From: a bacterium | Lineage (GTDB): Bacteria > CSSED10-310 > JAFGSJ01 | Assembly (NCBI GenBank): GCA_016934675.1 | Contig: JAFGSJ010000060.1 | Span: forward strand, 1 to 64,000 | Reading direction: 5' to 3' | DNA length: 64,000 nucleotides | Shown here: positions 11,704 to 16,367 of the stretch, piece by piece | How the letters are laid out: every line of letters starts with the position of its first letter | How positions within the stretch are numbered: position 1 is the first letter of the stretch | Notes under the pieces: model-generated | The model's input: only the letters and a program-made list of their open reading frames with translations | Told to the model about the DNA's origin: nothing | Database searches by the model: none | Translations under genes and position numbers: made by a program

Positions 11704-13287
11704 ATGTTGAACGAATTGCAGATAGTCATTGAATTATTGCTGATAGCCTCACTTGTGGCTGTGGCAATCAAGTATATCAGAATACCGTATACTGTTGCTC
11801 TGGTCATTGTGGGCTTTACGCTCTCGTTTGCCCGCCAGTTTCTTCCGGGGGCCGAGGCGTTTCATTTAACCCAGGAACTCGTCTTTTTGGTCTTTCTGCC
11901 ACCGCTCCTGTTCGAGGGAGCGATCAATATGGACCTCGAGTTACTTCGCATTAATGCCGTCTATGTTTTTATGTTGGCCTTCGGAGCGACGCTGTTAACC
12001 TGTTTACTGGTCGGCTTCAGTCTGCATCTTACCTTGGGTTTTGGACTGGTTTATGCTTTACTGCTGGGAACGATCCTGGCACCGACCGATCCGGTCAGTG
12101 TGCTGGCCATCTTTCGCGAGCAAGGGGTCAACAAGGAACTCTCGACCATTGTCGAAGGCGAATCGGTCTTCAATGACGGGATTGGGGTCGTTCTCTTCCT
12201 CGTCTTACTCGAACGGATCACTTCTCCCAACGAGTTCTCATACGGAGCTGGCAATATCAAGCTCCTCTGGGAAGTGGGGATGGGCTCCTTGATCGGTATC
12301 ATCATCGGTTATATGGTCCATCGCCTCCTGGGTAAAATTGACGATCATCTGACCGAAGTTACCATTTCTCTGGTCCTGGCATATGGCGTCTATATTCTGG
12401 CTGACCGGGCCCATGCCTCCGGAGTCATAGCCGTTGTTTGTGCCGGTTTGATCATGGGTAATTACGGTAAGGTCCTGTCCATGTCACCCACCACACGCTT
12501 AACTCTGACCTCGTTCTGGGAAGTGGCCGCGTTCCTGGCCAATTCCCTCCTGTTTCTGTTGATCGGCCTGGAAGCACGTCCGGATAATCTGATCCAGAAC
12601 TGGAAAATGATCGTCCTGATTTTTGTCCTGCTCGTTGTGTTCAGATCGGCGGCCGTGTACGGCCTTTTTGCCGGTCTGAGATCGTTTCGATCTGTTCCGC
12701 CCTATTCCTGGCTCCATGTCATTAACTGGGGCGGCCTGAGAGGTTCAATACCAATCGCCTTGGCCCTGGGTCTGCCTCTCTCATTCAACTTCAGCACCGG
12801 CCATACCACCATGACCCGGACTGATATCATCAGTATCGTCTTCGGCGTGGTCCTATTATCCTTGTTACTTCAAGGACTCTCAATCAAAAAAATCGTGAAT
12901 AACTTGGGACTCGCCGGTTTGTCCGGAGCTCCACGAACCTATCAACACCTGAGAGGACGAATTATTGCCACACAGGCTGCCCACGAAACTATACAACTCC
13001 TGCGACGCAAGGGTGAAATATCCGAACAAATCTACGATAAAATCAATCAGGAACTCGAAATGATGGCCCAGGAATACGGACTCGAAATGAAGGGTTTCCT
13101 GGCTGAACATAACGATCTTCACGCAGCCGAATATGCAACCATCACCCGTTCCCTGCTGCTCGATCAACGCTCAGCACTTCAGGAAGCAGCCCAACGGGGC
13201 ATCCTGTCTGAACATGTTACCACCGACCTGATCAGGGAAATTGATACCCGTCTGTCCATAAACCAGGATAATGTAAGCAAACCATAA
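11704..13287 (+). CDS. CPA1-family Na+(K+)/H+ antiporter
   Basis: Inner-membrane cation/proton exchanger of the NhaP/CPA1 type. About a dozen hydrophobic helices fill residues 1-400. The transport core is clear: APTDPVSVLAI with D129, and ESVFNDGIGVVLF with the N157-D158 pair typical of electroneutral CPA1 members. INWGGLRGSIPIALAL (about 340) is the conserved GGxRG helix. Residues about 415-527 are a soluble cytosolic tail rich in helices (RGRIIATQAAHETIQLLRR), as in many NhaP relatives. Likely role is pH and Na+ homeostasis. The gene stands alone, between a divergent envelope operon and the sahR promoter. Confidence 0.9.
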   Translation: MLNELQIVIELLLIASLVAVAIKYIRIPYTVALVIVGFTLSFARQFLPGAEAFHLTQELVFLVFLPPLLFEGAINMDLELLRINAVYVFMLAFGATLLTCLLVGFSLHLTLGFGLVYALLLGTILAPTDPVSVLAIFREQGVNKELSTIVEGESVFNDGIGVVLFLVLLERITSPNEFSYGAGNIKLLWEVGMGSLIGIIIGYMVHRLLGKIDDHLTEVTISLVLAYGVYILADRAHASGVIAVVCAGLIMGNYGKVLSMSPTTRLTLTSFWEVAAFLANSLLFLLIGLEARPDNLIQNWKMIVLIFVLLVVFRSAAVYGLFAGLRSFRSVPPYSWLHVINWGGLRGSIPIALALGLPLSFNFSTGHTTMTRTDIISIVFGVVLLSLLLQGLSIKKIVNNLGLAGLSGAPRTYQHLRGRIIATQAAHETIQLLRRKGEISEQIYDKINQELEMMAQEYGLEMKGFLAEHNDLHAAEYATITRSLLLDQRSALQEAAQRGILSEHVTTDLIREIDTRLSINQDNVSKP

Positions 13288-13373: not shown

Positions 13374-13402
13374 TTGACTATATCAATAAATCATGATATA
13401 GT
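13374..13402 (+). promoter_or_regulatory. sahR promoter with overlapping operator-like palindrome
   Basis: TTGACT (13374-13379), 17-nt spacer, TATAGT (13397-13402). A perfect 8-bp inverted repeat, CTATATCA (13378-13385) and TGATATAG (13394-13401), is wedged between and over the -35 and -10. A dimeric winged-helix protein bound here would block polymerase, which fits autorepression by the ArsR-type protein encoded 9 nt downstream. The predicted start of transcription (about 13409) almost coincides with the ATG, and no ribosome site is visible. Confidence 0.75.
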
Positions 13403-13410
13403 TATATTGT

Positions 13411-14334
13411 ATGAGCAGGATTGTGACATATTTCAAAGCGTTGGCGGACCAGACCCGGGTCCGGTTGATGCATATTTTGAGTCAGTATGAGTTGAACGTC
13501 AACGAGATCGTTGAGATCATGCAGATGGGACAGTCGCGTATTTCGCGTCATTTGAGGATACTGGCAGATGCGGGATTAGTCCGGGCCCGGCGGGATGGTT
13601 TATGGATTTTTTACAGTGTGGTCGGATCGGGTGCCGGTGCGGCTTTTTTCAAATCAATTGAGGCACACCTCAGGTCTGATCAGGATGTACCTGCTGATCT
13701 GGTCCGGACGGAACAGGTGATCGAGCGTCGTCGTCAGCGGACGGTCCAGTTTTTTGATACGATAGCCAGTGATTGGGAACAGTTAAGGGGGGAGTTGTTG
13801 GGAGATTTTGATTTGACCGGTGAAATAGTCCGGCTTTTGCCTGTTGGCGTGTTGACTGCTGATTTAGGGTGTGGCAGTGGGGATTTATTGAGGCGGATTT
13901 TGGTCGATAAGGGTCCGGTCATTGGGGTGGACCGGTCGCGGAACATGCTCAATGAAGCCCGTTCATATTGTGGAGCCGATGCGAGCGGGTTGGATTTGCG
14001 GATTGGCGAGCTTGAGCATTTGCCCTTGCGTGATGGGGAGGTCAATGCAGCGGTATTGAATATGGTCCTGCATCATCTGCACGCGCCACTCGGAGCGATT
14101 CAGGAAGCAAGTCGCATCATCAAGCCGGGTGGCATGTTGATCATTGCGGATTTTTTGACGCACACGCGGGAAGAGATGAGGCAGAGTCATCAGGACCGCT
14201 GGTTGGGTTTCACACCGGACCAGATCGAGGGTTGGCTCGAAGAATCGTTTTTCAAGCTTGAGAGAAAGGAAGCATATAGTTTGAAGCAGGATCTTATGAT
14301 TGGGTTGTATTCGAGTATTAAGCGAGAATTCTAA
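13411..14334 (+). CDS. sahR: SahR-like ArsR-family regulator fused to a methyltransferase domain
   Basis: Residues 1-85 are an ArsR winged helix (FKALADQTRVRLMHIL, then recognition helix GQSRISRHLRILADAGLV). Residues about 105-300 are a class I methyltransferase fold with motif I TADLGCGSGDLL (149-160) and a PGGMLIIADF strand. This two-domain layout directly upstream of ahcY is that of SahR, described in Proteobacteria including Desulfovibrio, where S-adenosylhomocysteine is thought to relieve repression of the methyl-cycle genes. The methyltransferase domain may serve as a SAM/SAH sensor rather than an enzyme; that is inference. It starts 9 nt after its own promoter's -10, probably leaderless. 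ahcY begins 28 nt downstream with a strong ribosome site. Confidence 0.88.
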   Translation: MSRIVTYFKALADQTRVRLMHILSQYELNVNEIVEIMQMGQSRISRHLRILADAGLVRARRDGLWIFYSVVGSGAGAAFFKSIEAHLRSDQDVPADLVRTEQVIERRRQRTVQFFDTIASDWEQLRGELLGDFDLTGEIVRLLPVGVLTADLGCGSGDLLRRILVDKGPVIGVDRSRNMLNEARSYCGADASGLDLRIGELEHLPLRDGEVNAAVLNMVLHHLHAPLGAIQEASRIIKPGGMLIIADFLTHTREEMRQSHQDRWLGFTPDQIEGWLEESFFKLERKEAYSLKQDLMIGLYSSIKREF

Positions 14335-14361
14335 TAATCGTTAGAAACAAGGAGGTTAAAG

Positions 14362-15825
14362 GTGAGTAGAGTAGCATTGGATCGGGAGTTAGAAACAAAA
14401 CAAGCGTGTTTGGAAGTAGAGCCTGGGTTACCCTATAGGATTGCAGACATCAAGCTGGCGGATTGGGGTCGTAAAGAGATGGAGTTGGCTGAGCGTGAAA
14501 TGCCCGGTTTAATGGCGGTTCGGGAAAAGTATGGTCCGGAAAAGCCGCTCGAGGGTAAGAAGATCATGGGCAGTCTGCACATGACCATACAGACGGCCAT
14601 GTTGATCGAGACCTTGAAGGAATTGGGCGCGGATATACGCTGGGCCTCGTGTAACATCTATTCGACCCAGGACCATGCAGCAGCGGCTGTGGTCAAGGCT
14701 GGTTCGGCGGCTGTTTTTGCCTGGAAAGCGGAGACCCTCGAGGAGTATTGGTGGTGCACGCAGCAGGCCTTGACCTGGCCAGATGGGAGTGGGCCTGACT
14801 TGATTCTCGATGACGGGGGTGATGCAACCCTGCTCATTCATCAGGGAGTCAAGGTCGAAAGAGACCCGGGTCTACTCGAACAAAAGTATGAGGTCAAGGA
14901 ATTTCAGATTCTGATGAATCGGCTGAAACAGACCTATCGCAGCAATCCCGGTTTCTGGACCAGCATTGCCGGGAAGGTCCTGGGGGTATCGGAAGAGACG
15001 ACCACGGGTGTGCATCGTCTCTATCAGATGATGGAACGGAAGGAGTTACTGTTTCCAGCGATCAATGTGAACGATTCGGTCACCAAATCGAAATTCGATA
15101 ATCTGTATGGTTGTCGTGAGTCACTGGCGGATGGGATCAAGCGGGCTACGGATATCATGGTTGCCGGCAAGATTGTGGTCGTGTGCGGCTATGGGGATGT
15201 GGGCAAGGGCTGTGCTCAATCCATGCGTGGTTTCGGGGCGAGGGTCCTGGTGACCGAGATCGACCCGATCTGTGCTTTGCAGGCTGCCATGGAGGGCTTC
15301 GAGGTGACCACCATGGAAGAGGCCCTGACAGAAGGCGATATTTTTGTGACTGCAACCGGTAACTATCATGTCATCACCGGCGAGCATATGGAGCAGATGA
15401 AAGACGAAGCCATACTATGCAACATCGGTCATTTTGATAGTGAGATCGAAATGGTCTATCTCGAGGAGAGTACTGATTGTCACAAGGAAGTGATCAAACC
15501 GCAGGTTGACCGCTGGCGTTTGAAGTCAGGTCGTTCGATTATAGTGCTGGCCGAAGGTCGCCTGGTCAATCTGGGCTGTGCGACCGGTCATCCCAGTTTT
15601 GTGATGAGTACCAGTTTCACCAATCAATGCCTTGCCCAGATGGAATTGGCCTCGAAAAAACATGAGATCAAGGTCTACACCCTGCCCAAAATACTGGATG
15701 AGGAGGTTGCCCGTCTCCATCTCGATCGTCTGGGAGTGAAAATGACCAGGCTCAACCAGAAACAGGCCGATTATATCGGCGTACCGATCGACGGTCCCTT
15801 CAAGCCCGACAATTATCGCTACTAA
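14362..15825 (+). CDS. ahcY: S-adenosylhomocysteine hydrolase
   Basis: Reversibly splits S-adenosylhomocysteine into homocysteine and adenosine, removing the inhibitor left by SAM-dependent methyl transfer. The cytosolic enzyme uses bound NAD+. Diagnostic stretches: [56 protein letters not shown], the NAD site [30 protein letters not shown], and the C-terminal PDNYRY that reaches the neighbouring subunit. Length (487 residues) is full. Translation starts at GTG 14362 after AAGGAGG. It is co-transcribed with sahR and so presumably responds to SAH level. Confidence 0.97.
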
Positions 15826-15917: not shown

Positions 15918-15946
15918 TTGACAAGTGCTCGATGGACAGACTATGT
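15918..15946 (+). promoter_or_regulatory. Possible promoter of cdd
   Basis: TTGACA (15918-15923), 17-nt spacer, CTATGT (15941-15946). The -35 is perfect but the -10 is weak. The predicted start of transcription falls on or next to the chosen ATG at 15954, which also lacks a ribosome site. Confidence 0.35.
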
Positions 15947-15953
15947 TGAAGTC

Positions 15954-16367
15954 ATGATAGAAACATTACAATTGGGATTGTCTGAATCAGATCCGTGGTA
16001 TGAGTCAGTTCTGGCTGCCATCGAGGCCAGGGGGCAGGCGCATGCGCCCTACTCGAAATTCAAGGTTGGGGCAGCGGTGCGTTTCAGTGATGGGCGGATT
16101 TTCGGTGGTGCCAATGTTGAGAATGTTTCGTATGGTTTGACCATGTGTGCCGAACGGGTAGCCGTGTACAGGGGTGTTTTTGCGGGAGCAGGCCGCATGG
16201 TTGAGTTGGCGGTGGCCGTGGCTGATCCGGCTTTACCATATCCTTGCGGGGCTTGCTTACAAGTTATGGCTGAATTCGGTTCAGATTTTCCAGTCCATCT
16301 GGTGAATACTGATCGAATCGTGCACGTGTCTTTTTCTCAATTATTACCGTACCGGTTTACCTTTTAG
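15954..16367 (+). CDS. cdd: Cytidine deaminase
   Basis: Hydrolytic deamination of cytidine or deoxycytidine to uridine, pyrimidine salvage. Numbered from the ATG at 15954 (137 residues): APYSKFKVGAAV (31-42), GGANVENVSYG (51-61), the zinc/catalytic TMCAER with C65 and proton shuttle E67, and PCGACLQV with zinc ligands C98 and C101. This is the short homotetrameric class. Upstream in-frame ATGs (15861, 15915) would add residues unlike the family, and none of the starts has a good ribosome site. The 15954 start may be read from a leaderless transcript. hpt follows 28 nt later, so nucleoside and base salvage are grouped. Confidence 0.92.
   Translation: MIETLQLGLSESDPWYESVLAAIEARGQAHAPYSKFKVGAAVRFSDGRIFGGANVENVSYGLTMCAERVAVYRGVFAGAGRMVELAVAVADPALPYPCGACLQVMAEFGSDFPVHLVNTDRIVHVSFSQLLPYRFTF

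Follow-up and report, generated by a model that had tools for sequence, protein, structure and literature searches.

A predicted SahR-type autoregulatory circuit at sahR-ahcY in a bacterium outside the Proteobacteria

We propose, with a probability of roughly 0.88, that the regulator gene sahR and the adjacent ahcY in a 64,000-nt stretch of bacterial DNA (the window) form an autoregulatory circuit of the SahR type. The characteristics of SahR systems found in the window are an ArsR HTH, a methyltransferase fold, an ATC-N10-GAT palindrome, an operator before the regulator's own gene and linkage to a gene of the SAM cycle. Earlier publications describe SahR, SAH as its effector and its autoregulation, and the window is a well-conserved example of a described circuit. 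In the portions of the literature available to us, SahR is presented as a SAH-responsive regulator in Proteobacteria (PMC4239095, PMC5343134) that recognizes a 20-bp palindrome and has a core regulon of sahR, ahcY, metH, metF and metK (PMC4239095). With the proteobacterial regulon, as described in those portions, the window shares the ArsR-family regulator, the ATC-N10-GAT palindrome, the operator before sahR and the target ahcY (PMC4239095). In Ensifer aridi, induction of sahR in its own deletion mutant was read as autoregulation, and an operator is likewise predicted before sahR; according to the available part of that report, the motif there is instead a rhizobial version, carried by several further targets (PMC8877191).

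The gene sahR occupies positions 13411-14334 of the forward strand and encodes 307 residues. The product combines an ArsR-family HTH at residues 13-58 (HTH_5, 2.3e-14) with a class I methyltransferase-fold domain at about residues 150-250 (Methyltransf_11, 4.4e-19, residues 151-245), which bears out the ArsR/methyltransferase fusion named in the first-pass annotation. In SahR proteins, a C-terminal SAM/SAH-binding domain of methyltransferase fold is fused to the HTH, and relatives of the window protein carry the same fusion. Residues D151, G153, G155 and G157 of the DLGCGxG motif were invariant among 41 sequences. An AlphaFold model built with 41 sequences had a mean pLDDT of 95.1, and its top Foldseek matches were SAM methyltransferases, several of them crystallised with SAH; at E ≤0.001 no solved structure covered both halves, each of the 58 hits matching one half. 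Downstream, ahcY (forward strand, 14362-15825, 487 aa) begins with GTG 27 nt after sahR, preceded by the Shine-Dalgarno sequence AAGGAGG at 14349-14355 on the same strand. It was identified as adenosylhomocysteinase by TIGR00936 (627.7 bits, cut-off 497.6), in agreement with the earlier proposal that the next gene clears SAH, and was the single copy found in the assembly.

The same domain matches bear on whether the protein might be a metal- or arsenic-responsive ArsR regulator with an arsenite methyltransferase as fusion partner, ahcY being only a neighbour. The subfamily model HTH_metalloreg scored 86.3 bits, above its cut-off of 55, and ArsM models matched weakly. However, the only cysteines are Cys154 and Cys187, leaving the HTH half without the residues of a cysteine-rich metal site, the ArsM model reached 52.5 bits where the cut-off is 263, and the linkage to ahcY is conserved across loci, so that we regard this explanation as very improbable.

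The putative operator is embedded in the promoter of sahR. The upstream gene ends at 13287, and the 123-nt intergenic region from there to the ATG at 13411 contains a -35 hexamer, TTGACT (13374-13379), and an extended -10 element, TGa-TATAGT (13394-13402, hexamer TATAGT at 13397-13402), both on the forward strand; the hexamers match at 10 of 12 positions, with a 17-nt spacer and a TG ahead of the -10. The predicted SahR-type operator (13377-13402, forward strand) consists of 9-bp arms, ACTATATCA and TGATATAGT, that are 100% complementary and lie 8 nt apart. Within it are the left half-site CTATATCA (13378-13385), the spacer ATAAATCA (13386-13393) and the right half-site TGATATAG (13394-13401), and the core ATC-N10-GAT is formed by ATC at 13382-13384 and GAT at 13395-13397. 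The left arm takes in the final two bases of the -35 hexamer, and the right arm coincides with the extended -10, covering five of the six bases of its hexamer. The annotation that palindromic half-sites lie between and over the -35 and -10 was thus correct in both position and description, the perfect arms being read directly.

Taken alone, this palindrome is suggestive of an operator and nothing firmer. Promoter-like sites numbered four in 3.3 kb, compared with a shuffle mean of 3.7, and the promoter call is by itself not significant. Equally perfect arms occur at eight distinct places (14 entries) in the 64-kb window, as would be expected if the palindrome had arisen by chance in an AT-rich promoter. 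Against such an origin, of 2000 dinucleotide-shuffled versions of the 123-nt intergenic region only 4 contained perfect arms of at least 9 bp with a loop of 4-12 nt, and relatives carry near-identical sites in the same position (among them TATATCAATAAATCTTGATATA in L047, L079 and L116). Together with the shuffles of the core described below, these observations make a chance palindrome the least probable of the explanations considered. It is the conservation among relatives, and not the palindrome itself, that makes the window site convincing as an operator.

Conservation was assessed at 90 loci, which represent relatives and are not independent of one another. Ten came from a search of 41 genomes (the window's own and 40 others), in which ten genomes, including its own, had the full-length fusion; the other 80 are the best of 459 relatives recovered from named genomes by a single peptide pattern taken from the recognition region. 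By their titles, these best 80 of 459 belong to Desulfobacterota-type bacteria, Spirochaetes, Candidatus Aminicenantes and Acidobacteria. In 83 of the 90 loci, a gene for AhcY follows on the same strand at a distance of no more than 600 nt (75 of the best 80 of 459, and 8 of the 10 from the 41-genome search). The remaining seven are L004 (730 nt, contig end), L010, L083, L087 (contig ends), L089 (2223 nt), L098 and L123 (515 nt left); four of them lie at contig ends or have a match just beyond the limit.

Of the 88 loci with 60 nt or more of upstream sequence, 72 had the core ATC-N10-GAT in the 130 nt before the gene, or 71 of 87 without the window (both counts including loci from the best 80 of 459), and the other 16 lacked it. 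In 100 dinucleotide shuffles the core appeared in a mean of 4.4 loci and at most in 11. Other spacings from N0 to N20 were found in 0-10 loci each, with the exception of N2 (56 loci) and N18 (26 loci), both of which are multiples of an 8-bp phase. A PWM was also built from 54 distinct sites, the window excluded (training median 30.4 bits, range 17.9-38.2). The window operator scored 29.15 bits, and elsewhere in the 64 kb, overlapping sites aside, the best score was 9.4. Scores of at least 17.5 bits were obtained in the 300 nt before sahR in 72 of the 90 loci (again including the best 80 of 459), and outside these 300 nt the best score was 16.2 across 603,761 bases from the 90 loci; these results are partly circular, the training sites having been chosen by their likeness to the consensus seen in the same loci. 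Unlike the PWM, the count of ATC-N10-GAT rests on an independent published consensus. The sensor-operator-enzyme circuit first proposed from 1 kb of DNA is therefore supported by the core in 71 of 87 relatives and by ahcY within 600 nt in 83 of 90 loci, with the best 80 of 459 included in both.

We envisage the following sequence of events at sahR-ahcY. A dimer of the ArsR-methyltransferase fusion would bind 13377-13402, between the -35 and -10 and over most of the -10, and the bound dimer would exclude RNA polymerase. Accumulating SAH, which methyltransferases produce and are inhibited by, would occupy the degenerate methyltransferase pocket, the repressor would leave, and the two-gene sahR-ahcY message would be made; AhcY would then split SAH, and repression would be restored. 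Both SAH as the effector and repression as the sign of regulation are inferred by analogy with published SahR proteins of other bacteria. An SAH riboswitch before ahcY would follow the same logic, in that SAH turns on ahcY, but is an RNA element; no riboswitch was found in the window, where Rfam at gathering thresholds matched a tRNA only.

The same repressor and operator could in principle respond to SAM, as proposed for SamR of Xanthomonadales. SamR is a distant homologue with which SahR shares the consensus ATC-10 nt-GAT, and its effector is left open in the available text (PMC4239095). Methyltransferase-fold pockets accept SAM and SAH alike, and sensing of the two is not separable from sequence. 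In the same text, however, SamR differs in having a 24-bp motif, in adjoining metH genes and in having metK as its only SAM-cycle gene, and in Leyn et al. it is SahR that is associated with SAM-cycle genes, SamR being tied to metH/metK regulons (PMC4239095). The window has neither the 24-bp motif nor the metH linkage of SamR; its regulator is linked to ahcY, and its site is near-identical to delta-type SahR-linked sites. Moreover, the linked enzyme in 83 of the 90 loci (including the best 80 of 459) is the one that removes SAH, and no operator was found at metK of this assembly. On balance we consider a SAM signal unlikely and SAH the probable effector.

Whether the SahR circuit extends beyond sahR-ahcY in this genome was addressed by two pattern scans of the whole assembly (5.45 Mb) with up to three mismatches. 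These returned 15 and 26 places, compared with 29 and 25 for a reversed control pattern, and hence no excess; besides the sahR site, none of the 26 places scored above 14.8 bits. In the sequence around three methyl-cycle genes, the best PWM scores were 5.9 bits for metK, 0.2 for a homocysteine S-methyltransferase gene and 0.5 for a fused S-methyltransferase/MTHFR (metF-like) gene. The genome search suggested in the first-pass annotation, for the same palindrome before other methyl-cycle genes, found none comparable before metK, two homocysteine S-methyltransferase genes and a metF-like domain, and the circuit is therefore local. Unlike the proteobacterial regulon, this assembly thus yielded no operator before its metH-, metF- and metK-type genes, which account for about two thirds of the core regulon described in print and are usual, not defining, SahR targets. 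A wider regulon was rejected within the limit of three mismatches, the sahR site alone scoring well, and in this genome the regulon appears to have contracted to sahR-ahcY. Such a minimal form, one regulator and one enzyme, would be a convenient candidate for an SAH sensor module.

As a positive control, the pattern was applied with up to two mismatches to five other genomes, giving 1, 2, 4, 5 and 6 forward hits, compared with 0, 0, 0, 5 and 2 for the control pattern. A perfect operator stood directly before metH in the Spirochaetes bin Prado232 (L165, site 1501-1522), and a strong extra site stood before metE in Desulfobotulus alkaliphilus, as expected of SahR; in the other three genomes the sahR site was the only strong one among the places examined. 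The extra sites before metH and metE demonstrate that the method is able to detect a wider regulon, and the former extends the SahR regulon beyond the Proteobacteria. A perfect operator in Desulfobotulus alkaliphilus (L158, site 1501-1522) precedes an ORF without a Pfam match.

Half-sites of SahR often repeat in an 8-bp phase across the 90 loci, forming overlapping palindromes in some promoters. At the 80 loci with a recognisable site, ATC was found at +3 in 69 and GAT at +16 in 72, and additional half-sites were ATC at +11 (42 loci), GAT at +8 (26) and GAT at +24 (18), the next position having 9. The window operator has ATC at +11 and lacks GAT at +24. The phased half-sites could represent overlapping binding registers.

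The position of the operator relative to the promoter varies among loci. TTGAC abuts the left operator arm in 22 of 88 loci (the window and 21 of 87 others), 12 of which are compact: the window, eight Aminicenantes, two Acidobacteria and one Spirochaetes. In these 12 the gap from operator to start codon is 3-10 nt (8-10 nt in ten loci), and GGAG, GAGG, AGGA and AAGG were absent from the 18 nt before the sahR start in all 12. With the right arm supplying the -10 in this arrangement, the message is expected to start at or close to the initiation codon. In the other ten of the 22, all Desulfovibrionaceae, the operator is followed by 27-183 nt. Many other loci have TTGAC about 22-42 nt upstream of an operator that would then cover the transcription start, and both placements would suit repression.

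In the window, sahR has no Shine-Dalgarno sequence, and its start codon lies 9 nt past the last base of the -10. Because the right half-site doubles as the -10, transcription is predicted to start at or within about 2 bases of the sahR ATG; sahR would therefore be translated at a low level from a leaderless end, and ahcY from a strong Shine-Dalgarno sequence. This leaderless start, and the resulting ratio of sahR to ahcY expression, are inferred. Counting against them is a GTG at 13423 with AGGA at 13417-13420, which could act as an internal sahR start. A Shine-Dalgarno sequence of 5 or more was seen for ahcY in 6 of the 10 scoreable compact loci, with starts chosen to favour one, and none was seen in 4. 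The fusion of operator and -10 with a near-leaderless start distinguishes the window from the proteobacterial regulon, and offers a simple, testable design.

The window and its relatives in Spirochaetota, Aminicenantes and Acidobacteriota, in contrast to the proteobacterial SahR regulon, lie outside the Proteobacteria, carrying a SAH-sensing repressor circuit mapped in that group to other phyla with near-identical operators. The regulon of Novichkov et al. 2014 reportedly spans alpha-, delta- and some gamma-proteobacteria. No publication on SahR outside the Proteobacteria was found in the literature searched, the coverage of which was limited and does not prove absence.

The window SahR has at most 50% identity to any row of the tree, and the window AhcY has 80% identity with a Spirochaetia row, compared with 41-64% for AhcY of the same phylum. 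A single clade of the window and five same-phylum rows was rejected for both proteins (p-AU 0.0077 for SahR and 0.00024 for AhcY). In the SahR tree, the window protein belongs to a group of 83 rows (support 85) that also holds Desulfovibrionaceae and other relatives, the experimentally studied D. alaskensis protein not being identified among the rows; branches are long, placement inside this large group is unsettled, and the group was chosen after identities had been seen. The pattern is as if sahR and ahcY had moved together. The reading of descent is further weakened by bin contamination of 5.71%, which stays possible for contig C61 because glmS, tried as a marker of its ancestry, was uninformative, its identity to almost all genomes being 30-36% whether or not they belonged to the same phylum. 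We offer only tentatively, as a doubtful possibility, that sahR-operator-ahcY is an inter-phylum cassette of compact design, with a half-site serving as the extended -10, a leaderless repressor message and 8-bp-phased half-sites admitting a second dimer.

Three SahR-like fusions of Desulfobacteraceae/Desulfobacterales (L083:3992-4903, L098 and L123) had a changed operator, and no ahcY was found nearby. Judged by eye, the products of neighbouring genes in L083 resemble a GntR regulator, LarA and a lactate permease, and a different target is possible for fusions of this type. Within the window, the gene after ahcY, read as a cytidine deaminase, is preceded at 15918-15954 by TTGACA, 18 nt and TATGTT, with an ATG 6 nt past the -10, and may also be leaderless. 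A perfect inverted repeat at 1562-1591, with 13-bp arms and a 4-nt loop, lies between two genes and is probably a terminator.
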